43,007 nucleotides of DNA from Muribaculaceae bacterium (lineage in GTDB: Bacteria; Bacteroidota; Bacteroidia; Bacteroidales; Muribaculaceae), in contig JAGCRW010000008.1 in assembly GCA_017964485.1 (NCBI GenBank), forward strand, positions 1-43,007, written 5' to 3'. Shown here one piece after another: positions 6,911 through 37,580 of this stretch. Position 1 is the first letter of the stretch; each line of letters opens with the position of its first letter. Under the pieces are notes generated by a model. That model did not search any database. It was not told where the DNA came from and saw only the letters and a list, made by a program, of their open reading frames with translations. The position numbers were made by a program, and so were the translations under genes.

Positions 6911-7012
6911 ATGAAATGCAAAGATTTTCATTTTTATTTCCGAAACGCCGCCTAATTTATCTAAAATTAGTGCAAGTTGAGAGAAAAACCAAATTTATTT
7001 GAGTTTTTCCGC
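6880..7012 (-). repeat. Tandem copies of a promoter-bearing repeat
   Basis: Read on the minus strand, two units share TTTCTCTCAACTTGCACTAATTTT (6880-6904 and 6962-6985). The upstream unit (6962-7012) has TTTG-N20-TAATTTTA. The junction GATAAATTAGGC at 6950-6961 precedes the second unit, as it precedes a third copy at 39346-39414. Confidence 0.75.
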
Positions 7013-7076
7013 AGAGCAAAAAAGCAATTTATTGGTATATATTTACGTTATTATATATACTGAAAAAACCGAAAGA

Positions 7077-8678
7077 ATGAAGATAAAGATAAAAGCTCCG
7101 CTAGGAATCAGTGAAAAGGGACAATCGGCAGTACAGTGCAACTCGTTTTTCCCGCATCTCGCTTATGTGAACTCGAGCGACCATGTGTTTGTGCTCTGCG
7201 ATGGCGTTGCCGGCCATGCTCACAGCGAGGTGGCGAGTGCAGTGGTGGCTAAAGCCCTTGGCGAGTGGATGAACGCTAATGTTGACTTTTCGCAGCAGCT
7301 CACTGGCGTGACAGTGCGCCGCGCTGTTGTGCATGCCCAAGAGCAACTAGATGCCACCTACAGTCGCTATGAGCCGAGCCGTTACCCCATGGGCACAACC
7401 ATGGCGATGCTTGCCTTTGGCAACTTTGGTGTTGCGGCTGCCCACATAGGCAACAGCCGTGTCTATCACCTGCGTCCCTCGCGCCGCGAGACTCTATACC
7501 GCTCGCGCGACCACTCACTGGTCAACGACCTTTTTGTCGCCGGTCGTCTCACTCGTGCCGAGGCCGACGCATCGGCTAAAAAGAACGTGCTCACCCGCGC
7601 CATGCTCCCTGGTCCTTGTAACGCAGCGGTGCCCGACGTGGCATTTATCACCGACATCCAGGCGGGCGACTACTTCATTCTGTGCTGCGACGGCATCACA
7701 AGCGCTCTGAGCGACAAAAAACTCAAAGACGTGCTTTGCAGCAAGTTGAGCAATGCGCAGAAACTTGCGTCACTTAAGATGCTCACCAATTCTGTGCCAG
7801 CCAATCACAGCATACTGCTCATTGAGGTGGAGAGCGTTGAAGAAGAGGACGGCGACCACCTGCTCGTCAACACCGAGCGACTGATGTGCGACAAGATGGT
7901 GCGACGCAGCGTGATTCTCGCCCACAAGGAACCTGCAGTAATCACTCCACCGCCAGCTATAGTCACGCCTCCGCCAGCACCTGTATCGGCACTTGATGAA
8001 GGTGTTGAGACCATTGAGGCGCCAATAGAGCAAGAGCTGGCAGTCACTGCCCCCGTTGTCGAAAACCAACCGGCAGTCACCGCCACTCCCCCACCTGCAC
8101 CGGCACAGTCAGCGGCAAATAAAGACAAGTTGTTGAAACGCCTGCTGTGGATTGCAGTTGCCGCTTTGCTTTTTCTTGGCGCCATAACAGCGCTGTTGCT
8201 CTACAACAACAAAAAGGACAGCGATAAAGAGGTGTCTCAGGTAAGCCAAAGCGAGGAAAAGAGCGACCCCGATGTAATCGTCAGCAAAGACATACCCGTC
8301 AATGACGTGGTGCCAGAGGAGCCTTTAGAGCCGTTCGACAACACCGAGGGCGAACCTGCCACCGGCAGCAACGTGGCAGTGACACCTGCGCCTAGAGTAA
8401 GCAACATACCTCTGCCCACTGGCAGCAATGTGAAAGTGCCTCGAGTAAAGGAGGGCGATCCCTATCCCGATGCTTTCGACAACAAGAACGACTACAAGGA
8501 GCTTGACAGAGAAGTGCCCGAGACACCCGTTGTCAACAACGATGAGCCAAAGCAACCTGCACAGCCTGGTGGCGTGCCGCAACCTAAGAAAAAGGCAAGC
8601 AACGACCCAACCAAATCCAACCGTGGAATACCAGTGCCTCCGCCACCAACTAAGAGCCACAAAATAGAGACACCATAA
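7077..8678 (+). CDS. PP2C-type Ser/Thr phosphatase with transmembrane anchor and Pro-rich tail
   Basis: I chose the ATG at 7077 because the frame upstream (from 6999) encodes AT-rich non-conserved sequence. The 533-residue protein opens with a PPM/PP2C domain (about residues 10-250): VLCDGVAGH (metal ligand Asp42), MGTTMAML at 105, AHIGNSRVY at 122, DHSLVNDL at 145 and CCDGI with Asp205. The usual final DN motif reads AN (about 242-243), so one metal ligand may be missing. A Pro-rich linker (about 285-345) leads to one transmembrane helix at 355-377, then an acidic, Pro-rich tail on the other side of the membrane. It would dephosphorylate Ser/Thr-phosphoproteins. The membrane Ser/Thr kinase at 28492 is the only candidate opponent in the window. 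The stop is 2 nt before the next start, so the genes are coupled. Confidence 0.88.
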   Translation: MKIKIKAPLGISEKGQSAVQCNSFFPHLAYVNSSDHVFVLCDGVAGHAHSEVASAVVAKALGEWMNANVDFSQQLTGVTVRRAVVHAQEQLDATYSRYEPSRYPMGTTMAMLAFGNFGVAAAHIGNSRVYHLRPSRRETLYRSRDHSLVNDLFVAGRLTRAEADASAKKNVLTRAMLPGPCNAAVPDVAFITDIQAGDYFILCCDGITSALSDKKLKDVLCSKLSNAQKLASLKMLTNSVPANHSILLIEVESVEEEDGDHLLVNTERLMCDKMVRRSVILAHKEPAVITPPPAIVTPPPAPVSALDEGVETIEAPIEQELAVTAPVVENQPAVTATPPPAPAQSAANKDKLLKRLLWIAVAALLFLGAITALLLYNNKKDSDKEVSQVSQSEEKSDPDVIVSKDIPVNDVVPEEPLEPFDNTEGEPATGSNVAVTPAPRVSNIPLPTGSNVKVPRVKEGDPYPDAFDNKNDYKELDREVPETPVVNNDEPKQPAQPGGVPQPKKKASNDPTKSNRGIPVPPPPTKSHKIETP

Positions 8679-28491: not shown

Positions 28492-30000
28492 CTATGGTGC
28501 CGCTACAGAATCTTCATAAAACTCATCGTCGGCCATGCTAGAATAATAATTCTCGGCATCTCGAGCATTACTAAGCTTATCAATAAGCTTGTTGGCCTTG
28601 CGTTGCTCCGAATCACTGAGTTCGTTGCAGTAGAGAGCCGCCTTAGCCCATTTCAACGCCTCATCATAATTATCCTTTTCCTCATAAAGGAGAGCAAGCG
28701 GATAGAATGCTCGTGCCGAATCTTTTTCGGCATATTTCTTGAGAAGCTTAAAGTCTTCGTTCTCGATAGCATATTGCAGTGATTTATCATCGTCATCTCT
28801 ACTGTGGCCGCCTTTGCTCCTGCTGTTTCCTGATGTCAAGGCGATAACGCCCCATGCTGCCAGGCCCAGTACCAGAATTGTCGCCAGTGCGCTAAGGGCG
28901 ATGATAAGCCCGCGTTTTGACTTGCGTTTTGGCTCGGAATTATAGGAATTGCCGGGATAGCTGTATTCTGGCTGCCTGTATCCACCCGAAACTATGCGTG
29001 TGTTGCTAGACTCGGGTGCCGATTGTGGAGCCACATAGTTCTGGCGCATTGTAGCATTGGCCACGTTCTGCGGAGCATTAGCCACAAAACCGCTCATAAA
29101 CTGCCTGACGGTGGCAGGGCGGTTGTTGAAGTCCTTGCTCATGCCGCGCACTATGTTGTCAATCGTCACCTTGCTCGCGCGACCGTGAAGGTCGGCAGCG
29201 ATAATGCCGGCGTTGATATCAAAGGCGCCCTTGGGATCGCGGCCTGTGAGCAAGAAGTAGCAGGTGGCTGCAAGGGAATAGATGTCGAGGCGCGGGTCAA
29301 ACCGGGTAACTCCGGCAAACTGCTCCATGGGCGAATAGCCCTGCGTCACGCCCTTCGAGGGGCGAGTGGTTGTGGGGGCGCCATCGTTGGTGAAATGCAC
29401 CGAGATTCCAAAGTCGATAAGCACTGGCACGTCGGGGCCGCCTTCGTCGCTCTGCCGCATGACAATGTTCTCGGGCTTGAGGTCGAGGTGCAGCATGTGG
29501 TTGTCGTGCAGGCACTGGATAGCATTGGCAATAGGTGTGATGATGCCGAGCATCGTCGCCTCGCTCACACCGCCACCATTATACTTCACCATCTTGCGCA
29601 AATCACCGCCCGAGAGATATTCCATCACGAAGTAGGCGGTGTTGTTGGCCTCAAACACCTCGTTCACTCTCACAATGTTGCTGTTGATGCTGCAAATGCG
29701 CTGCAGGCGCTGGCCCTCAGCGACGAAATCCTTGAGGCATGCCTCCATCTCGACCTTAGTGGTTGGAGAGTAGAGCATCTGTGTGGAGCCTTCGTTGCGC
29801 CAGCAGTTCGACGGGAAAAACTCCTTGACGGCAAAGTGGGTGGTGACGGCAATATTCCCCGCCATGATGCGAGCCTTTACCTTGTAGGTGATGCCAAAGC
29901 CTCCCTGACCCAGCACTTGCTCAATGGTATATACATGCGAACCGCCTGTGAGCTTAAACCCAACGGGCAACGCTTGTTCAAATTTCTTTCCTTCGGCCAT
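28492..30000 (-). CDS. Membrane Ser/Thr protein kinase, non-RD type
   Basis: The 502-residue protein begins with a Hanks-type kinase domain (about 22-305). It has the Gly loop GQGGFG (31-36), the ATP lysine in AVK (Lys59), a helix-C Glu near 95, the catalytic loop HLDLKPEN (171-178, Asp173), DFG (196-198), GYSPMEQ in place of the APE motif, LDIYSLA and the closing Arg294. The residue before Asp173 is Leu, not Arg, so it is a non-RD kinase and may not need activation-loop phosphorylation. A linker leads to a transmembrane helix (364-388), an Asp-rich patch (RDDDDKS) and a short TPR-like end. It has its own promoter and lies downstream of the FHA, zinc-ribbon and caspase genes, its likely partners. 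Confidence 0.93.
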   Translation of the reverse strand: MAEGKKFEQALPVGFKLTGGSHVYTIEQVLGQGGFGITYKVKARIMAGNIAVTTHFAVKEFFPSNCWRNEGSTQMLYSPTTKVEMEACLKDFVAEGQRLQRICSINSNIVRVNEVFEANNTAYFVMEYLSGGDLRKMVKYNGGGVSEATMLGIITPIANAIQCLHDNHMLHLDLKPENIVMRQSDEGGPDVPVLIDFGISVHFTNDGAPTTTRPSKGVTQGYSPMEQFAGVTRFDPRLDIYSLAATCYFLLTGRDPKGAFDINAGIIAADLHGRASKVTIDNIVRGMSKDFNNRPATVRQFMSGFVANAPQNVANATMRQNYVAPQSAPESSNTRIVSGGYRQPEYSYPGNSYNSEPKRKSKRGLIIALSALATILVLGLAAWGVIALTSGNSRSKGGHSRDDDDKSLQYAIENEDFKLLKKYAEKDSARAFYPLALLYEEKDNYDEALKWAKAALYCNELSDSEQRKANKLIDKLSNARDAENYYSSMADDEFYEDSVAAP

Positions 30001-30024
30001 GGATATTTAAGTTTTATGAGTCTA

Positions 30025-30032
30025 CAAAGATA
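30025..30032 (-). promoter_or_regulatory. -7 element of the kinase gene
   Basis: TATCTTTG on the minus strand lies 25 nt before the kinase ATG. The -33 element is weak. With the terminator at 30112 it makes the kinase a separate transcription unit. Confidence 0.6.
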
Positions 30033-30111
30033 CGACTTTTTTCTGAAAAAAACCACGAATTCTCACTAATTTTGGATTATGTTTTTTCAACTTGGCTTTC
30101 AATCATAGAAA

Positions 30112-30150
30112 CAATCCCCATTGAGCGCCTTATTGCGTCAATGGGGACAA
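30112..30150 (-). terminator. Probable terminator after the Sel1-repeat gene
   Basis: A 10-bp perfect stem (30115-30124 with 30138-30147), extended by weaker pairing, starts about 20 bp after the Sel1-gene stop. The following T run on the minus strand is short. Confidence 0.65.
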
Positions 30151-30168
30151 TTGTTTATGTTGCCTGAC

Positions 30169-31764
30169 TCAGAACTTTGTGCCAGCCAGCATGTTGATTA
30201 AGGTGTTGTTTTCTTTTGTTCTGCGCAGTTTGTCAACGTGTTTGTTGAGGTCTTCACTCTCTGGCAGCTTGACGATGCCTTTCTCGTAGAGAGTGGCGAG
30301 CTGCTTTGCCGACTCTGGGGTGAGGGCGCGCTGCGCCTCGGCAAGGAGGTAATAATTGGCGGCTTTATCCACGTCAATTTCCACGCCGCTGCCCTTTACG
30401 TACTTGTCGCCGAGCCTGCACTGCGCTGCCGCGCAACCTCCATTGGCGGCCACGGTGAGCATGTTGAGTGCGGTTTTGGAATCTTGCTTCACGCCATCGC
30501 CATTTTCAAGAAGCAAAGCGAGGTAATAACATGCAAGGGGGCTGCCACTGCTAGCTTTCTCTAGCATCTTGGCTGCCTTTTTCATGTCGCGTTTCTTGAT
30601 GAGAGCCACTCCTTGCATTGTTGTCCCCTCGGCAATTTGTGCCTTCTCCACCGCCTGAAATAGGCTCATAGCTGCTTTGGTGTTACCAGTGATGTTATAT
30701 TCATAGAGTCCTTTGAGGTAACTGTAGAATGGATCATTCTTTGACTTGAGGTCGGCAATGAGATTGCTGTACTCTGTAGCCTTGTTGGCCGACGCCACTA
30801 GTGCCATCCACTGCGCAGCGAGGGCATAGTTCTGTGGAGCGCCATTGCCCAATCGGTAACAGTTGGCGAGAGTCCACATCGCATTGTTGTTGCCTTTCTC
30901 GGCAGCAAATTTAATCATCTGGTATCCCTTTTTCTTATCTTGCTGGCTATTGCCGTTGAGGTAGATATCCCCCAACTTATAAGTGGCAGCCACATGACCT
31001 TGGTCAGCAGCCATTTGCAAGTATTCCAAGCCCTTAGTTTTATCTTGCCTCACACCATCTTTGCCATCATAGAGCATAAGTCCATAAAAATAGGATGCCC
31101 TGATGTCGCTCTTGAGAGCGGCTTTCTCGAAATATTTGAATGCCTCGCCTCGCTTACCATTGTTGTAGAGATACAGCCCCACAGGGAAGTAACTGTCCTC
31201 ATCGCCAGCGTCGGCGGCAAGGCGCTGATACTCTGCCGCCTTGTCGGTGTTGCGCTTCACGCCCACACCCTTGTCATAGCACTCCGTCATGAATTTGCAC
31301 GCAAACACATCGCCTTCCTTTGCCATTTCGTCAAAAGTCTCTACCATTCCCTCAAGCCCATCTCTTGTGGCAATAAGAAATAGCTTCATGGCGCGGTCGA
31401 GGTCTTGCTCCACGCCATCACCGCTGCCCAAACCGTTGTAGTAGAGCAGTCCAAGCCACCCTTTGGCCTCGGTGCTATAAGGCTTAGCTTCGGGGGTATC
31501 TATCTCGGCGGCGTTGAGGAACCACTCTGCGGCAGTCTTAAAATTCTGCTTGGCGCCATCAGAGCCAGCGTAATAGGCTTTTCCGAGCAAGAGCATCGCC
31601 TCGGCATCGCCTTGTGTGGCACGGTCTCGCAACTTGTCAAGTGTGCTCTTCTCTTCGACCACATTCTCGGTTTTCTTGTTGGCTTTCGACTTCTTTTGGT
31701 CACTGGCAGTAGTGAAGGTCACTGCCAAGACTAAGATTAATATTATTAGAGAATATCGTTTCAT
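30169..31764 (-). CDS. Exported Sel1-repeat protein
   Basis: The 531-residue product has a signal peptide (about 1-20) and then a Lys-rich linker. From residue 45 to the end it is a run of Sel1-like repeats, 36-40-residue helix pairs with the pattern A-x-x-x-L-G-x-x-Y (AMLLLGKAYYAGSDG, AKGWLGLLYYNGLGSGDGV, ASYFYGLMLYDGKDGV, ATYKLGDIYLNG, AQCRLGDKYVKGSGV). Such solenoids are scaffolds for protein complexes. It would act outside the cytoplasmic membrane. It is 79 bp downstream of the zinc-ribbon/FHA gene on the same strand and probably the last gene of that operon. Confidence 0.9.
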   Translation of the reverse strand: MKRYSLIILILVLAVTFTTASDQKKSKANKKTENVVEEKSTLDKLRDRATQGDAEAMLLLGKAYYAGSDGAKQNFKTAAEWFLNAAEIDTPEAKPYSTEAKGWLGLLYYNGLGSGDGVEQDLDRAMKLFLIATRDGLEGMVETFDEMAKEGDVFACKFMTECYDKGVGVKRNTDKAAEYQRLAADAGDEDSYFPVGLYLYNNGKRGEAFKYFEKAALKSDIRASYFYGLMLYDGKDGVRQDKTKGLEYLQMAADQGHVAATYKLGDIYLNGNSQQDKKKGYQMIKFAAEKGNNNAMWTLANCYRLGNGAPQNYALAAQWMALVASANKATEYSNLIADLKSKNDPFYSYLKGLYEYNITGNTKAAMSLFQAVEKAQIAEGTTMQGVALIKKRDMKKAAKMLEKASSGSPLACYYLALLLENGDGVKQDSKTALNMLTVAANGGCAAAQCRLGDKYVKGSGVEIDVDKAANYYLLAEAQRALTPESAKQLATLYEKGIVKLPESEDLNKHVDKLRRTKENNTLINMLAGTKF

Positions 31765-31843
31765 AACATTATAGTTTTAAGTTAAATGTCAAGTGGGCTG
31801 CGCTCCCTAATCTCTAATCGGAACGAAGTGTTATGCTCCTGTT

Positions 31844-33022
31844 TTATTTAGCGTCCTCACTAGCTTTAACAAACGAAATTACAGTCTTTCCCATGCATAT
31901 CGTGTCGCCATAGTTGAGCAGCACGGTCATGCCATTCTCCACAACACGGTTATTGACAAAGATTTTGTTGGTGCTGCGCAAGATTCTCAGCTCATAGGTG
32001 TAATCATAGCTGCCTTGCCTGAGCACCGCCGAGATTTCCACCGACTGGCGGCTCATCTCATCATCGCCAGTAATCATCACAGTAGATGGCAAATCGGGGT
32101 CAAATCGACCAATGGTGGTCCGTCCTGGACGAAGGCGGTGACTTTGTGAACGCGAAATGAACGAGCCAGTTTTCCAGGTGAGCATGCCCTTAGGTTCGGT
32201 TGCGACAATTGGAACCGCCCCACCAATGGCAGGAGGCTGAACACCAGGCCCCATTGGAGGAACTGGAACGCCCACGGGAGGGGGTGGAGGCATGCCAGGC
32301 CCTACTGCAGGTATTCTTGGTGGAACTTGTACACCGGCGACAGGAGGAGGAACAGCAGCCCTCGCTGGAGGAAGAGGGTTGTGAACAGGCGGTTTATAGG
32401 CATTACGCCCAGCGTTTGCACCAAATCCTCCACCAGGGGACAACAAAACGGTGCTTGGTCCATCATCATCGTCCTGTGGAGGTGCGGGGTGCGGAGGCGG
32501 AACGACATTTGGTTTAGCAGCCTGGTGAGGCACAGCTGCCTCTCCCATCGAACTATACACCACCTGTGTGCCACACTTCGAGCATTTCACCCTCATCAGC
32601 TTGCCGGCGACACGAGGCATTATCACAATATCCTTGCTGCACCCAGGACACACAAAGCGGTACTGCGTGTTGACCTGAGCCTTCTCCATGATTTGATAAT
32701 GCCCCTTTCCGGGTGGCACGATGGGAATGCCCAGCACGGGGATGCTGGCATTAGGTCTTTGCTTAGAATCCACAGGCTCAGCATGCTGCATTTCCTTGGG
32801 CAAGCCACGCGATATCACGCGGTCGTTAAGAATGTCAGATTTCAGCACTTTGACTTCTACCCCATCGGCAGCATTAACCTCAAACGACACCTTGTTCTGG
32901 CAATGCGGACATGTAAATTTGTATCTGCCAGGTTTGGGCGGCATTTTCACCGTCAACTCCTTGCCACAATGGTCGCAAACCACAGTTTTCAACCTTGCCT
33001 GTTTATTGTTCTGTTCATCCAT
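31844..33022 (-). CDS. Zinc-ribbon and FHA domain protein with Pro-rich linker
   Basis: The 392-residue protein has two zinc-ribbon modules, with Cys16, Cys19, Cys38, Cys41 and Cys125, Cys128, Cys147, Cys150. A linker very rich in Pro and Gly (about 165-280) follows, then a C-terminal FHA domain (about 296-386) with GRTTIGRF, MSRQSVEI and NKIFVNNRVV. FHA domains read phosphothreonine; here the usual His after the Ser-Arg pair is replaced, so affinity may be altered. No signal peptide or membrane segment is seen, so it is cytoplasmic. The zinc modules strongly resemble the free-standing 130-residue protein at 35314. It probably recognises targets of the kinase at 28492 (inference). Confidence 0.88.
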   Translation of the reverse strand: MDEQNNKQARLKTVVCDHCGKELTVKMPPKPGRYKFTCPHCQNKVSFEVNAADGVEVKVLKSDILNDRVISRGLPKEMQHAEPVDSKQRPNASIPVLGIPIVPPGKGHYQIMEKAQVNTQYRFVCPGCSKDIVIMPRVAGKLMRVKCSKCGTQVVYSSMGEAAVPHQAAKPNVVPPPHPAPPQDDDDGPSTVLLSPGGGFGANAGRNAYKPPVHNPLPPARAAVPPPVAGVQVPPRIPAVGPGMPPPPPVGVPVPPMGPGVQPPAIGGAVPIVATEPKGMLTWKTGSFISRSQSHRLRPGRTTIGRFDPDLPSTVMITGDDEMSRQSVEISAVLRQGSYDYTYELRILRSTNKIFVNNRVVENGMTVLLNYGDTICMGKTVISFVKASEDAK

Positions 33023-33055
33023 GCATTTTTATTTTGCAACAATCACAAGTGACGT

Positions 33056-34432
33056 TTACACCATGTCCATGCTATCATCATAGACGTCGGCCTCCATTTC
33101 CATCGAGTTGTCGTAGTTGTCCTCGGGGATGTAGGAGGTGGTGTCGGCCACCAGATCTTGGCTGTCGTTAACAAACTCCACTGGCTCCTCGTTGACCTCG
33201 GCCATCGCGTCCTCTCCAAGGTACTGCTCAAGCTCCTGGTCATCGACAATCACTTCCTCGTCGGCCATGGCATACTGGTCATTGTTGGCAGTGCCGCCAG
33301 CATTGGCATCCATGATCAAGTCATCATCTTCCATGATTAAATCATCGTCTTCCATCATAATGTCGTCGTTCATAGCAATATCATCGCCGCCAATGCCACC
33401 AGTCTCATCGTCCATAATGATCTCATCGTCGTTCATAGCAATATCATCGCCACCAATGCCACCAGTCTCATCGTCCATGATAATCTCATCGTCGTTCATG
33501 GCAATGTCATCGCCACCAACGCCGCCAGTCTCGTCATCCATAATGATGTCTTCGCCTGAAATGTCGCCGTCATTGGGCAGGTCACGTTGTGCGGTGAGCT
33601 CACCATCATCGGTAATGATGATGTCATTATTTATGTCGTCATTATCGACAAAGATTCTGTCCTCCGAACCTGGAGCAATGTAACCACCCTCGGTGTCAAT
33701 CATTGCCTCGAGGTCGCCGCGAGTAAAGGCAAACTGTTCGTCTATAGCAATTCTGTCTCCGTTGTTGGGATTCATTGCCACGTCATAGATTCCAGAGCCT
33801 GGCTCACCCTCAGTGATGAGCACATATCCGCCGTTGCCATCCTCAAAGAGCATGCCATTCACCTGATTACCATCTTGGTCGGCAATCGTGCGCCATCCCA
33901 CTGGCGTCCACTCACCATCCTTGTGATCAACATCAATCTGGTCTCTCTCAATGATGGTGTCGGTGCGGTCGTCAATGTCGTTGCCTCCACCATCATCATC
34001 TTCGCGCCCACGTGGCCTTCCTGGTCGGTCGGGTCGGCCAGGACGATCATTGTCGTCATCGTCGTCGCGGCGGCGCAGATTGCGTCGCAGATCGTCATTG
34101 TCGTCACGGCGGTCCCGAGGAATATCTTTCTTGTTGTTGTCCTTATTAAGCTCTAGGTCCTTGTCGTCATCATAGTAACCATCATCTTCGTTCCCATCGT
34201 CTTTCACTTCATCATTCAATTCCTCCTCATCATCGTCGTCAAGGTCATAGTGTTTCGGGTGAAGAGCATCGCTGATTACAGTAGCACCTGCAGCAGCGCC
34301 ACCAGCGGCAGCTGCAACTCCCACTCCTACAGCAGCCCCCACCGAAGCACCTTTAGAGACTTTCTTTTTCTTTTCCTCATCGCTCTCCATGTTAGGTAGA
34401 GCCGGAGGCATATTGTTTTTTATAGTATCCAT
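33056..34432 (-). CDS. Asp-rich heptad-repeat protein with membrane segment (paralogue of 35747)
   Basis: The 458-residue protein has a short basic N-terminus, an Ala/Gly-rich hydrophobic segment (about 29-54) likely to cross or dip into the membrane, the motif KHYDLDDDDEE at 60-70, and an Asp/Arg-rich disordered part (70-170). A small folded region (about 178-245) contains VGWRTIADQDGNQ, GEPGSGIYD and FTRGDLEAMI. From 295 there are acidic repeats: three near-identical 21-residue units (EIIMDDETGGIGGDDIAMNDD type) and further DLIMEDD heptads. The end is DDSMDMV. No known family is recognised. The acidic repeats could bind calcium or act as an interaction scaffold. It shares its layout with the 342-residue protein at 35747. 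Confidence 0.8.
   Translation of the reverse strand: MDTIKNNMPPALPNMESDEEKKKKVSKGASVGAAVGVGVAAAAGGAAAGATVISDALHPKHYDLDDDDEEELNDEVKDDGNEDDGYYDDDKDLELNKDNNKKDIPRDRRDDNDDLRRNLRRRDDDDDNDRPGRPDRPGRPRGREDDDGGGNDIDDRTDTIIERDQIDVDHKDGEWTPVGWRTIADQDGNQVNGMLFEDGNGGYVLITEGEPGSGIYDVAMNPNNGDRIAIDEQFAFTRGDLEAMIDTEGGYIAPGSEDRIFVDNDDINNDIIITDDGELTAQRDLPNDGDISGEDIIMDDETGGVGGDDIAMNDDEIIMDDETGGIGGDDIAMNDDEIIMDDETGGIGGDDIAMNDDIMMEDDDLIMEDDDLIMDANAGGTANNDQYAMADEEVIVDDQELEQYLGEDAMAEVNEEPVEFVNDSQDLVADTTSYIPEDNYDNSMEMEADVYDDSMDMV
33362..33550. repeat. 63-bp tandem repeat inside the Asp-rich gene
   Basis: Three in-frame copies of a 63-bp unit encode 21 residues each. The last two are nearly identical in DNA (period 63, for example 33371 and 33434). 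Such repeats can change copy number by slippage. Confidence 0.85.
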
Positions 34433-34502
34433 AATTCTGTTTATATGTTTTGTGCCGCATCTTTGTGCGACATGATTAATAATTTGTTAAAAAATCAGTC
34501 TC

Positions 34503-35276
34503 TTACCACTTGGCGATAACAGTGTTGTGCTCGCTAGAGGGACCTATCATCTGTGGATGTTGCACCATATCGGGATCATCGCTCTCCATGCGCATGGTAA
34601 CCTCGTTGTAGACGTACTTGAAGAGCTCCATAATGGTAATCTTGCGGTCGCCGTCGCGGTCGGCCTGGCCACGGAAGCCCTTGACAAGAGCGTTGCCAAA
34701 CACCGAGTGCCGCACTGGAGTCGTCTCACGGTTGATGATGCTCTTTGAGGTCTCTCCTGGACGACTCGACACGATGAATGTGATGCCACTCTTAACGGCG
34801 TCGTCACTCCAGTTAGGATCAGAAGTCAGTCCCTTGGTGATAGTACCCGAAAAGCAGGCCATAACGAAGACATAAACGTGCTTTGTCTTGCTCTTGGCAA
34901 GGATGTCGATTATCTCCTTGTAGTAAACAGCGCCACCACCATAGGTGAGCAGGTAACCATCATCCTGGCCGTGTGTAGCGAAGAAGAGGACTATACGGTC
35001 GTCGGGCTTCTTAGCGGCAGCCACCACATTTTTCACGCGCTTGAGTACGTTCTCTCGGGTGGCATACTGGTTAACAATCACGCTACCCTTGTAGCCCTGC
35101 TTTTGAAGGGCCTTCTTGAAATCAATGGCATCATATTGCGCCGACGAGATGTCCTGCGCGCCAGGTGTGTTGCACTTCGACAATCCCATGCAGAAGCAGT
35201 AGTTCTTAGCATTGACGTTGCCGCTCATCACAAAAATGGCAAGCACCATAAACAGTATCACTGATAACTTTTTCAT
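34503..35276 (-). CDS. Exported caspase-like (C14) protease with EF-hand-like loop
   Basis: The ATG at 35276 gives 257 residues with a signal peptide ending NVNA (cleavage near 23). The longer frame from 35330 puts polar sequence before the signal and overlaps the upstream gene. The caspase/metacaspase fold is indicated by LFFATHGQDDG (97-107, catalytic His102), FVMACFSGT (catalytic Cys141) and IVSSRPGETS (168-177). DRDGDRKIT (207-215) looks like a calcium-binding EF-hand loop followed by a helix. Both dyad residues are intact. Metacaspase-like enzymes cut after Arg or Lys, often calcium-activated. It sits between the two Asp-rich genes and the zinc-ribbon gene, which suggests a joint role. 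Confidence 0.9.
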   Translation of the reverse strand: MKKLSVILFMVLAIFVMSGNVNAKNYCFCMGLSKCNTPGAQDISSAQYDAIDFKKALQKQGYKGSVIVNQYATRENVLKRVKNVVAAAKKPDDRIVLFFATHGQDDGYLLTYGGGAVYYKEIIDILAKSKTKHVYVFVMACFSGTITKGLTSDPNWSDDAVKSGITFIVSSRPGETSKSIINRETTPVRHSVFGNALVKGFRGQADRDGDRKITIMELFKYVYNEVTMRMESDDPDMVQHPQMIGPSSEHNTVIAKW

Positions 35277-35313
35277 ATCTTCATAGTTTTTGCTGTTAAT
35301 AAAAGGGGACTGA

Positions 35314-35706
35314 TTATTCCTTGGGCTCAACAGCCTTGTAGGCGATAATGGTGCCGCATTTCTCGCATCGGGTCCTTAGCACCTTGCCTGCCTCGGGGGG
35401 AATAATCGACATCTCGTTGTTGCAGTCGGGACATACAACCTTATATGGATGCCCCACAATGCCGCGCTTCTTGATTACATACAACTTGTCCTTCACTTTC
35501 TCGGGATGACCAAGTTCGGGCACGATAAACCGTGGTGCAATCACCATCTTGGCGGGCGCCTCGTCTTTAGTAACCACAAATCTCACCATGTTCTTGCAAT
35601 GCGGGCAAGCCACCCTGTAGCGTCCCGCATTTTTCACTTTCACTTTGAAGGACTTTCCGCAAGAGTCGCATTGTCTCTTGAGGACCATAATTTCACTATT
35701 GCTCAT
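35314..35706 (-). CDS. Double zinc-ribbon protein
   Basis: The 130-residue protein consists of two zinc-ribbon modules, with Cys13, Cys16, Cys34, Cys37 and Cys92, Cys95, Cys114, Cys117. The arrangement (CDSCG, then GRYRVACPHC; KVVCPDC, then VRF/RTRCEKCG) matches the two modules at the N-terminus of the zinc-ribbon/FHA protein at 31844, including the spacer segment containing RG and GHPYK or GHYQ. It looks like that protein without its linker and FHA domain. It is probably cytoplasmic. Its gene lies 40 bp after one Asp-rich gene and 37 bp before the caspase gene. Confidence 0.85.
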   Translation of the reverse strand: MSNSEIMVLKRQCDSCGKSFKVKVKNAGRYRVACPHCKNMVRFVVTKDEAPAKMVIAPRFIVPELGHPEKVKDKLYVIKKRGIVGHPYKVVCPDCNNEMSIIPPEAGKVLRTRCEKCGTIIAYKAVEPKE

Positions 35707-35746
35707 ATTTTTGATATCTATTAGAATGTTAATACTACTATTGTTC

Positions 35747-36775
35747 TTACACCATCAAGGTGTCATCCATTGGCTCATCAAGCAAGTCCTCATCGGGATA
35801 GAGATCCTCATCGGCATAGGGCTCGTCGAGTTCGGGAGGCGTGTCAATATCACCTGAATCGCTATCAATGTCGTCATCGTTGATTGCCACATCTTCATCA
35901 TCGATAATCACCTCATCATCTTCGAGAACAACATCGTCATCTTCAAGGGCCACATCATCGTCGTCAAGAATCACATCGTCTTCATCAAGAACAATTTCAT
36001 CATCAGGAACGATTTCTTCATCATCAGGAATGATTTCGCCATCATCAAGATCTATTTCGTCATCATTGATGATTATATCATCTTCGCCAGTGATTTCTTC
36101 ATCACCGCCGTCATCGTTATTGTCATCATCGTTGTCGTCATTGTCGTCGTCACCGTCTTCTCCATCTAATGGCTCATCGGTATCGAGGGGCTCTTCGCCT
36201 GTCTCACTGGTATAGGGATTAGGAATTTCGTTCTCCAGCTCCTCACGGGTATAGAAGTTATCGATATGCTCAAAAGTATAGGGATCGGTGGTCATGTCAA
36301 CTACAGTGTCGTAGATTCCCGAGCCAGGCTGGCTCTCGACCAAGGCATACATGGCTCCCCCTGATTCAGCATCGCCAATGATGAAGAAATAAACATCATT
36401 GCCTTCTTCATCCACCCCGGGATACCAGCCTAGTGGCACTAATTCCACATCGCTGTCTGGCATCATGCCATCAGGCTCGTCGGCAGGGCCAACAATGGGC
36501 TCATCAGCTGGCTCCTCTTGAGGACGCTCTTCCTCTTTAGGGCGTGTGTCTTCTTTGGGTTCTTCCTGGTTGTCGTCATTAAGATTCTCAATATCCTCGG
36601 TGTCATCATCGTCGTCAAGGTCATAGTGCTTCTTGCCGAAGACATTTTTCAGCATATAGCCTGTGCCCGCTCCGGCTGCTGCCGCGGCGCCTGCGGCGAG
36701 GGCTACGGCCAAACCACTCAATCTCTTACCATTCTCTCCTGCAACTGGTGCATAATTTGATTTCTTAGTTTCCAT
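35747..36775 (-). CDS. Asp-rich heptad-repeat protein with membrane segment (paralogue of 33056)
   Basis: The 342-residue protein has a hydrophobic Ala/Gly-rich segment at 20-42, then KKHYDLDDDDD at 48-58, a Glu/Pro-rich linker, and a small domain (about 114-184) with LGWYPGVDEEGND, SQPGSGIYD and YTREELENEI, clearly related to the domain in the 458-residue protein. From about 233 to 305 there are some ten acidic heptads of the form DD(V/I)x(L/I)(D/E)D (DDVILDD, DDVALED, DDVVLED). The end DDTLMV also matches the paralogue. The role is unknown; a membrane-attached, calcium-binding or scaffold protein would fit. It is the second gene of the operon. Confidence 0.8.
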   Translation of the reverse strand: METKKSNYAPVAGENGKRLSGLAVALAAGAAAAAGAGTGYMLKNVFGKKHYDLDDDDDTEDIENLNDDNQEEPKEDTRPKEEERPQEEPADEPIVGPADEPDGMMPDSDVELVPLGWYPGVDEEGNDVYFFIIGDAESGGAMYALVESQPGSGIYDTVVDMTTDPYTFEHIDNFYTREELENEIPNPYTSETGEEPLDTDEPLDGEDGDDDNDDNDDDNNDDGGDEEITGEDDIIINDDEIDLDDGEIIPDDEEIVPDDEIVLDEDDVILDDDDVALEDDDVVLEDDEVIIDDEDVAINDDDIDSDSGDIDTPPELDEPYADEDLYPDEDLLDEPMDDTLMV

Positions 36776-36831
36776 ATTTTTAATGTTATTATTGCCCCGT
36801 CATGAGGCTTGGTTAATATCTTGGGAGGTAA

Positions 36832-37476
36832 TCACTTCTGGCATCTTCCGCATTTCAGGTTCTCTATCTCGTCGTTGGTTAGTTTGCGGTCACACTCTGG
36901 ATTGGGACACTGGCTGAAGAGCTTGCGCTTCTTGACAATTTTGGCGCGCTTGCCCTGGGCATCGTAGAATGTGGTGGCACCCATAGTCAACAGTGAAATG
37001 CCACGATAAAAATTAAACATCATTTTGGTTGCCGAATCATCAAGGATTTGCCATATAATAGTCCCTATAGTAAAAACTAGCATTATAGCGAAGATAATTA
37101 TTCTCACCCATTTGGCATTCTTTGCCACTTTTTCCTCTTCCATGTCAAACTCGAGTTTCTTATTACGCATGTAGAGGTGCTCGTCAACATAGTCGCCTGG
37201 GTTTACGAGTTGCTTGGCATAGAAGCAGCAACCTGCCGAGCTGTCTTCACCAAGAACAATAAAAGTCATCTCCGAAATCTGCATTCCCTGTGGGCCCACT
37301 CTCATCAATTCACCACTCATTTCGTTCCTTACAAAGGTGCCATTGGTGGAATTGCTATCGGCAAGAATCCATCTGCCATAGTCGTCAATTGTTACTGTAG
37401 CATGAATTTTGCTAACCCCAATTCCCTTGATTTTAAAGGGCTGATCGCCGGCTTTTCCTAATGTTATGGTTTTCAT
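36832..37476 (-). CDS. FHA-transmembrane-zinc-ribbon protein
   Basis: The 214-residue protein has an N-terminal FHA domain (about 1-75) with VSKIHATV (Ser22, His25) and DSNSTNGTFV (40-49), the conserved phosphothreonine-binding positions. A charged linker leads to one or two transmembrane helices (124-144 and perhaps 156-170), then a zinc ribbon with Cys190, Cys195, Cys209 and Cys212. The first two cysteines are spaced CPNPEC. The FHA domain faces the cytoplasm or the zinc ribbon does, depending on the number of helices. It should recognise a phosphorylated partner at the membrane. It heads the operon; TAAATTTG at 37536-37543 on the minus strand is a possible -7 box. Confidence 0.88.
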   Translation of the reverse strand: MKTITLGKAGDQPFKIKGIGVSKIHATVTIDDYGRWILADSNSTNGTFVRNEMSGELMRVGPQGMQISEMTFIVLGEDSSAGCCFYAKQLVNPGDYVDEHLYMRNKKLEFDMEEEKVAKNAKWVRIIIFAIMLVFTIGTIIWQILDDSATKMMFNFYRGISLLTMGATTFYDAQGKRAKIVKKRKLFSQCPNPECDRKLTNDEIENLKCGRCQK

Positions 37477-37580
37477 TATTAGTTATGATTTATTCGCTAT
37501 TTTTCTTATTTATGTTATGGTTTTTAAAAACTCCACAAATTTAATAATAATAATTTGATTATTAATAATAATTTATATTA

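Follow-up and report, generated by a model that had tools for sequence, protein, structure and literature searches.

An eight-gene cluster on the minus strand of a 43,007-nucleotide contig from a Muribaculaceae bacterium (GCA_017964485.1, JAGCRW010000008.1; this whole stretch is the window below) belongs to a gene set that recurs from Bacteroidales to Cytophagales, with gene order shuffled and content kept, and that brings a membrane Ser/Thr kinase and two FHA proteins together with an exported caspase-like protease. Gene content, linkage, co-inheritance, export signals and intact catalytic residues are matters of direct observation. We give an even chance to the proposition that the cluster is one inherited system in which cytosolic Ser/Thr phospho-signalling is tied to the exported caspase, that is, a phospho-switch acting across the inner membrane. 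No agreed role is known for bacterial caspases, which are for the most part regarded as effectors of death or conflict; if the proposition is true, a bacterial caspase would acquire a regulated, testable circuit tied to a write-read-erase phosphorylation set, and the Ser/Thr phospho-signalling of common gut bacteria would reach through the inner membrane to a protease. The eight open reading frames (ORFs), which span 28492..37476, are these (TM, transmembrane):

36832..37476, minus strand: FHA1, with an FHA domain, TM segment(s) and a C-terminal zinc ribbon (C190/C195/C209/C212)
35747..36775, minus strand: AspA, with a basic N-tail carrying T3, an Ala/Gly-rich TM segment and an acidic ectodomain
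35314..35706, minus strand: ZnR, related to FHA2 but lacking its FHA domain, with two zinc ribbons
34503..35276, minus strand: CASP, with a signal peptide, a caspase-like peptidase domain (H102/C141) and an EF-hand-like loop, DRDGDRKITIME
33056..34432, minus strand: AspB, a relative of AspA, with a basic N-tail carrying T3, a TM segment and an acidic ectodomain that holds a conserved domain
31844..33022, minus strand: FHA2, with two zinc ribbons, a Pro-rich linker and an FHA domain at the C-terminus
30169..31764, minus strand: SEL1, with a signal segment at the N-terminus and Sel1 repeats
28492..30000, minus strand: KIN, a non-RD Ser/Thr kinase with a TM segment at 364-382 and a short outer tail that Pfam matches weakly as TPR-like

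An ORF check finds all eight at these coordinates, and the domains that the original prediction had read from the letters alone are borne out by Pfam: FHA twice (E 5.8e-9 and 6e-7), Pkinase (4.9e-29), Sel1 repeats (1.4e-45, 8 stretches) and, for CASP, a clan CD peptidase under the C13 model (2.2e-9). The zinc ribbons claimed for three proteins fare less evenly, as most lie under the curated Pfam cut-offs; an exception is the DZR match of the 130-aa protein, and the ribbon of FHA1 is called from conserved Cys residues. Hydropathy places the kinase domain, the FHA domains, the zinc ribbons and the N-tails of the acidic (ASP) proteins inside, and the caspase, SEL1, the ASP ectodomains and the kinase tail outside, in agreement with the topology proposed at the outset. 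KIN is one of two PF00069 kinase matches in the genome (91% complete).

Separation of these genes in related genomes had been named beforehand as an outcome that would refute a common system; the neighbourhood turned out to be kept. A search with the window FHA1 against 198 genomes of the family yielded matches at E <= 0.001 in 33; under profile thresholds of E <= 1e-40 for FHA1 (23 full-length places) and E <= 1e-46 for the caspase (51 places, 48 genomes), a caspase lies no more than 8.5 kb away at 21 of the 23 FHA1 places (counting that of the window), against about 1% expected by chance on a rough estimate from genome size; one of the remaining two is cut off by a contig end and the other is unlinked. 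In the reverse direction, an alignment of the 21 caspases beside FHA1 matches (A1) was compared with named genomes, and, out of at least 284 relatives, the best 80 loci, which are from Bacteroidota (Muribaculaceae to Spirosoma and Dyadobacter), were inspected for partners on the same strand within 12 kb: FHA1 and FHA2 each occur in 70, ASP in 59, KIN and PP2C each in 56, LytTR in 50 and SEL1 in 48. Under a looser definition, an ASP-like gene is found in 71 of the 80 same-strand runs, and for three of the nine runs without one (L118, L126, L128) an ASP with a weak label lies at a greater distance. Among the 45 well-flanked loci (2.5 kb or more upstream, 7 kb or more downstream), FHA2 is found in 44, FHA1 in 39, ASP in 36, PP2C in 33 and KIN in 32; the core of FHA1, FHA2, PP2C and KIN is complete in 27, represented by at least three members in 36 and by at least two in 40. 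When the 17 loci that supplied rows of A1 are removed, 63 remain, 34 of them well flanked, with all four core partners in 22, at least three in 27 and at least two in 29. Furthermore, 20 extra caspase places without an FHA1 profile match were examined within 8 kb on either strand with broader profiles, and at least one core partner was found at 18 and at least two at 15; with twelve loci from the genus added, the numbers become 30 and 24 of 32, where six of the twelve were chosen with PP2C already seen nearby and some of the 32 share species with the 80. The exceptions among the 32 are L208, which lies close to the end of its contig, and L195, which is labelled with LytTR alone, both without a core partner, and L181, which has one weak FHA2 match. 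At the level of the phylum, a caspase match with E <= 1e-40 turned up in 21 of the 395 genomes compared, counting that of the window; most of the others are caspase domains within ORFs of at least 400 aa, so the figure is not taken as a prevalence.

The usual gene order is LytTR - FHA1 - CASP - ASP - FHA2 - PP2C - KIN/SEL1. In the locus of genome G154, Pfam recognizes LytTR (4e-7), PP2C_2 (1.8e-16), Peptidase_C14 (4.4e-22) and Pkinase (1.5e-28). The loci of Dyadobacter, Spirosoma and Fibrisoma keep FHA1, acidic proteins, FHA2, PP2C, CASP and a kinase domain. A plasmid of Runella rosea carries FHA1, an acidic protein, FHA2, PP2C and CASP, with a vWA-annotated gene adjoining that for FHA1 and no kinase labelled within the 18.8 kb examined. 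The pairwise distances of the parts correlate (r 0.69-0.88; largest null 0.16, 200 label shuffles each), which points to co-inheritance. The early view of the cluster as one signalling system is upheld insofar as the cluster is conserved, and it missed that the canonical set also has PP2C and LytTR, which are not in the window.

The gaps between successive genes from FHA1 to SEL1 measure 56, 40, 37, 70, 33 and 79 bp, within the 33-79 bp first noted, and 168 bp separate SEL1 from KIN. Three elements bear on transcription:

30100..30165, minus strand: terminator-like hairpin in the SEL1/KIN gap (-25.8 kcal/mol, z -5.0)
30025..30032, minus strand: TATCTTTG, a -7-like element and candidate kinase promoter, with no exact full-promoter match
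37536..37543, minus strand: TAAATTTG, a -7-like element 5' of FHA1, with no exact full-promoter match

Because the wide gap holds a strong hairpin followed by TATCTTTG, the first seven genes probably form one operon and the kinase a second unit; the gap is compatible with a terminator followed by a promoter of the kinase itself, which had been asserted from the start. The -7-like element before KIN was called with reference to the Bacteroidota promoter consensus. Exact promoter-like sites of the form TTTG-N17-21-TANNTTTG number 10 in the window versus 0.92 expected, so this consensus is readable in the present genome. The immediate flanks of the cluster are housekeeping genes by Pfam, with a DNA polymerase III delta-type gene (2.9e-37) only 43 bp past the kinase.

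The start of CASP is most likely at 35276 (MKKLS..., a signal peptide) and not at the TTG at 35330, and residue numbers are counted from this MKKLS. The dyad initially described as intact is indeed so: H102 and C141 are kept in all 82 caspases compared (80 loci, one with two copies, and the window), which places the family with the caspase-like clan CD peptidases (C14/C13). The predicted structure of CASP (mean pLDDT 91.4) has legumains and caspases as its top Foldseek matches (best E 5.7e-12), and by profile the closest solved structures are GSU0716 (3bij, 2.1e-10) and then legumains. A hydrophobic N-terminal segment was detected in 74 of the 82 and an EF-like loop, under a strict pattern, in 73. 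The residue two before the catalytic Cys is Asp in 70, Met in nine, Gly in two and Glu in one; the nine with Met139 are the window CASP and its eight closest relatives (L063-L070), all of which also carry THG for GHG. We take Asp211 of the metacaspase TbMC2 to be the residue two before the catalytic Cys and equate its position with caspase 139. According to the excerpted text of PMC6426788, Asp95 and Asp211 of TbMC2 hold basic residues. By analogy with this metacaspase-type Asp, most caspases of the family are expected to cut after Arg or Lys. With Met139 in place of Asp, the window CASP lacks the acidic S1 residue of orthocaspases and metacaspases (C14B), and its cleavage specificity may differ from the family pattern. 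Peptidases of C14B cut after Arg or Lys in a calcium-dependent manner, and the EF-like loop is the candidate calcium feature of CASP.

Cleavage of the Asp-rich proteins by the caspase, which the original prediction proposed to test, seems unlikely to occur after Asp; Asp-specific cleavage was rejected as the leading idea, given the S1 Asp in 70 of 82 caspases and ectodomains that avoid Lys and Arg, not Asp.

As an aside on the caspase neighbourhoods, two adjacent Endonuclease_NS-type genes follow CASP-ASP-ZnR-SEL1 and precede an mnmE-type gene at L065:14730-16593, L066:14755-16703 and L069:14786-16662; four of the six are confirmed by Pfam (E 8.6e-54 to 1.9e-47) and the other two are recognized by motif, so that at these loci, where no kinase is labelled, a caspase stands beside EndoG-type nucleases.

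AspA and AspB, correctly singled out at first reading as Asp-rich membrane proteins, contain 37% and 31% Asp+Glu and a single weak, Ala/Gly-rich TM segment each; aligned as profiles, the AspA/AspB type and the ASP type of the relatives match with a probability of 96.7% (E 3.3e-10), values that low complexity may inflate. A D-x3-D-x3-D loop, in most cases DVDGDxxxD, is nearly invariant in the ASP family and lies in a region that is modelled as a block of pLDDT 88-95 (residues 51-100), and the homologues of Dyadobacter and Spirosoma have several DxDGD-type loops. Basic residues are scarce in the ectodomains. In Asp139 loci, Lys+Arg has a median of 0.8% and a mean of 1.4% (n=80, including one row, L102 at 14.2%, that is maybe a false ASP), with at most one basic residue in 35; in Met139 loci the median is 2.2% and the mean 3.8% (n=11), in Gly139 loci the values are 4.3% and 3.9%, in the Glu139 locus 1.5% and 0.6%, and the SEL1 proteins taken for comparison have a mean of 13.5% (49 proteins). 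The difference between Asp139 and Met139 loci is significant (Mann-Whitney p = 0.00024, the Met139 rows being one clade), with a similar Asp+Glu content (0.27 vs 0.31). Such near-absence of Lys and Arg outside would be expected next to a caspase that cuts after Arg or Lys, and it is less strict in the clade of the window; possibly, Met139, THG and the higher Lys/Arg content of the acidic partners in this clade reflect a co-evolved change of specificity.

The short N-tails of the acidic proteins show a second pattern. In 95 usable tails, reduced to 73 by removal of near-duplicates, Thr is at position 3 in 32 and within positions 2-6 in 55 (mean 27.6 and maximum 41 in 2000 shuffles), and T-x-x-[ILVFM] with the Thr at 2-7 occurs in 31 (shuffles: mean 4.5, maximum 13). 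The same motif is found in other N-termini of the cluster, namely 4 of 59 for FHA2, 6 of 59 for KIN and 0 of 23 for PP2C; thus, it is enriched in the acidic proteins and is not exclusive to them. An N-terminal Thr within the ETTS phosphosite is tied to FHA recognition in GarA/OdhI, as described in the accessible part of PMC8546545, and the N-tail motif resembles this site; that it is itself such a site is our hypothesis.

KIN has the G-loop, the catalytic Lys, an HLDLK catalytic loop with its Asp, and DFG, which by motif make it a Hanks-type Ser/Thr kinase and confirm the non-RD assignment. Among 70 proteins labelled KIN, the catalytic loop reads HLD in 43, HFD in 16 and HCD in two, with nine unmatched, and HRD was matched in none. 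FHA domains contact phospho-Thr via GR, S and N motifs. The window FHA1 has GK in place of GR, which is found at this site in 52 of 70 relatives (loose pattern), and retains VS..H and NGT; FHA2 retains GR, and its S-R-x-H and NGT motifs are altered. In L118, L128, L134 and L205, three kinase-labelled genes occur within one cluster, which suggests duplicated input branches.

A scheme can be proposed in which the target of the membrane kinase would be a Thr in the short N-tail that the acidic membrane proteins have in the cytosol, FHA1 and FHA2 would read the mark and assemble a complex at the membrane, and acidic, putatively calcium-binding ectodomains would control the caspase-like protease at the outer face of the inner membrane. 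In most relatives, PP2C would reset the switch and the LytTR protein would set expression, both having presumably been lost from the locus in the lineage of the window. We infer who phosphorylates whom, the binding of calcium and the route of the signal to the protease; the weakest step is how a phospho-complex inside would alter a protease outside. The full version of the scheme, a trans-envelope phospho-caspase pathway shared by gut Bacteroidales and free-living Cytophagales, with a Thr-tail mark, FHA and zinc-ribbon readers, reset by PP2C, a calcium-dependent caspase mostly specific for Arg/Lys, and ectodomains poor in Lys and Arg that would survive their own protease, is put forward tentatively and is, in all its parts together, rather doubtful. 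It does name a candidate substrate, the Thr tail, and predicts a specificity, namely basic P1, changed in the clade of the window.

Several observations weigh against a common system of this kind or against parts of the scheme. The window locus lacks PP2C as well as LytTR. Fewer than three core partners are present in 9 of the 45 well-flanked loci, and L065, L066, L068 and L069, all relatives of the window caspase, are labelled only with CASP, ASP, ZnR and SEL1; therefore, the kinase is not always needed locally. In genome G198, the seven upstream genes are on contig C146 (L177) and KIN is by the polymerase gene on C31 (L246), owing to either rearrangement or assembly error. The caspase search profile was built from FHA1-adjacent caspases, and the distance correlations between parts, computed with no control for the species tree, show co-inheritance and not interaction. 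As regards the acidic proteins, AspA and AspB of the window are without a clear DxDGD loop and have T3 with no hydrophobic residue at +3, the Thr motif also appears in the N-termini of FHA1 (9 of 35) and LytTR (5 of 23), and the Thr and Lys/Arg patterns were noticed post hoc among related, non-independent sequences.

So could PP2C have been present at this locus before? The relatives L063, G135 and G236 share the site of the window, with esterase and pseudouridine synthase genes on one side and the polymerase gene on the other. Since PP2C lies between FHA2 and SEL1 at this site in G236 (L178) and not in the window, L063 or G135, it was probably lost from the locus in the lineage of the window. 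G135, whose FHA1 is 90% identical to that of the window, lacks AspA and carries another locus, L067, in which both PP2C and LytTR are present. Mobile insertion was considered as an origin of the cluster and set aside, as no clean empty site was found among the six genomes of the genus that lack the system there (L240-L245; L245 covers only 3.2 kb), none of which has a TruA-type gene near the polymerase gene. A phage origin was likewise rejected: no phage record matched, and four plasmid records matched weakly, at 24-28% identity.

Among the other explanations, that of a cell-death or conflict system, in which the kinase arm would sense attack and free the exported caspase against envelope proteins of the cell itself or of its neighbours, is unlikely. 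Caspases, kinases and FHA domains are given as alternative conflict effectors in the portions of PMC8195603 and PMC7159879 at hand, and two endonuclease genes lie 3' of the caspase cluster in the three sister loci described above (4 of 6 Pfam-confirmed). In a comparison with PADLOC-DB 2.0 made with no cut-offs or set rules, mad6 (2.3e-36) and PD-T4-6 (7.4e-33) were matched by the kinase domain, and there were weak matches of CASP to a caspase model (2.5e-5), of SEL1 to a PtuA model (4.6e-7) and to Cas12/Cas10 models. These matches, however, reflect shared domains and not the set of any known system, and many kinases presumably match equally well; besides, its export sets the caspase apart from most effectors described so far, and the window cluster is flanked by housekeeping genes, with no phage matches and plasmid matches confined to the four at 24-28%. 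It is similarly improbable that the caspase serves maturation, processing exported partners into a surface structure at a time set by the phospho-arm. Such partners are at hand at several loci, where further exported-looking proteins accompany the core (FGE-sulfatase in 2 of 10 proteins scanned, PEGA in 1 of 10, also Sel1 and unknown proteins), yet these accessory genes differ between loci. That the phospho-genes and the exported genes adjoin for a non-functional reason, such as shared LytTR regulation, would accord with the window kinase behind its terminator-like hairpin and promoter-like element and with the separate kinase of G198, and is nonetheless very improbable considering that the same core recurs from Bacteroidales to Cytophagales with order shuffled, content kept and distances correlated.

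Each part of the cluster is a member of a known family, and the inherited system favoured here has relatives in part. The type VI secretion (T6SS) threonine phosphorylation pathway (PpkA/PppA/Fha) encodes a membrane Ser/Thr kinase, a PP2C and an FHA reader together, as do relatives of the window cluster, whereas the putative output of the present system is an exported caspase accompanied by acidic TM proteins; Pfam scans of 21 window proteins show no T6SS gene, and no search aimed at Tss genes was made. TerY-type triads consist of vWA, PP2C and kinase. The kinase, the zinc ribbons and, in relatives, PP2C are shared with them; the window cluster, being without PP2C, is not such a triad. The absence of vWA, by which the cluster was first set apart from TerY, agrees with the lack of a vWA Pfam match for the eight proteins (for the 130-aa protein, among the 25 of 39 matches listed), the 80 relatives not having been searched for it, and is qualified by the vWA-annotated gene on the Runella plasmid. 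The KKP module also has PP2C beside kinases and involves FHA; in the part of PMC11341870 available, FHA is fused to the kinase, the module is prophage-borne and no caspase is named, whereas FHA here is separate and linked to membrane segments or zinc ribbons. Where KKP has PP2C and then two kinases with fused FHA and CSD, the window cluster has one kinase, no PP2C and no fused FHA. Orthocaspases and metacaspases share the His-Cys dyad and, with 70 of the 82, the Asp before the Cys (PMC3501461 and PMC6426788, in excerpt), and differ from the form found here, which is exported, single-domain and placed in a recurring kinase/PP2C/FHA neighbourhood, with Met in the clade of the window. The sole NCBIfam match of CASP is the EACC1-associated caspase NF047832 (E 1.6e-15, 57 bits versus a cut-off of 140), and no EACC1 partner was matched among the eight cluster proteins. 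In the GarA/OdhI switch, too, an N-terminal Thr phosphosite is linked with FHA recognition (PMC8546545, in part); here the predicted Thr site is on a separate membrane protein. The main text of the 2012 survey of prokaryotic caspase homologues (PMC3501461) mentions FHA 0 times, and the accessible parts of PMC7159879 and PMC8195603 present caspases, kinases and FHA as effectors, and the kinase/PP2C/vWA theme, in other arrangements. No description of the gene set was found in the open-access literature, subscription papers and preprints being outside this scope, so that a prior description is possible; as far as the searches reach, no described kind of system joins write-read-erase phospho-signalling to an exported caspase and to acidic TM proteins of its own, as is conserved here in Bacteroidales and Cytophagales.

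Two relatives of PP2C are encoded elsewhere in the genome of the window, one of them in the window itself:

6999..8678, plus strand: PP2C-related protein, 559 aa, with GNSR for GDSR, 20 kb off, of uncertain membership in the system

This protein falls among the system PP2Cs in a tree, on a long branch with weak support, and both its first metal-site motif and its GDSR motif (here GNSR) are changed. It is not favoured as the missing phosphatase, considering the altered metal-site motifs and the presence in G236 of both the 559-aa type and an in-cluster PP2C; possibly, it is a pseudophosphatase. The other relative, on contig C33, is intact and of the system type (the eight system PP2Cs nearest to it share 46-51% identity with it), and appears to be the better candidate for a phosphatase acting in trans. 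The three closest genomes have copies of the 559-aa protein (544-574 aa, 75-85% identity), and for two copies a single stop is reported within the matched stretch. Finally, the same family has a second type of FHA/PP2C/kinase locus with no caspase label (L054, L055, L056, L057), and in L054 and L057 this locus holds a protein of 1246-1280 aa that matches the kinase query.

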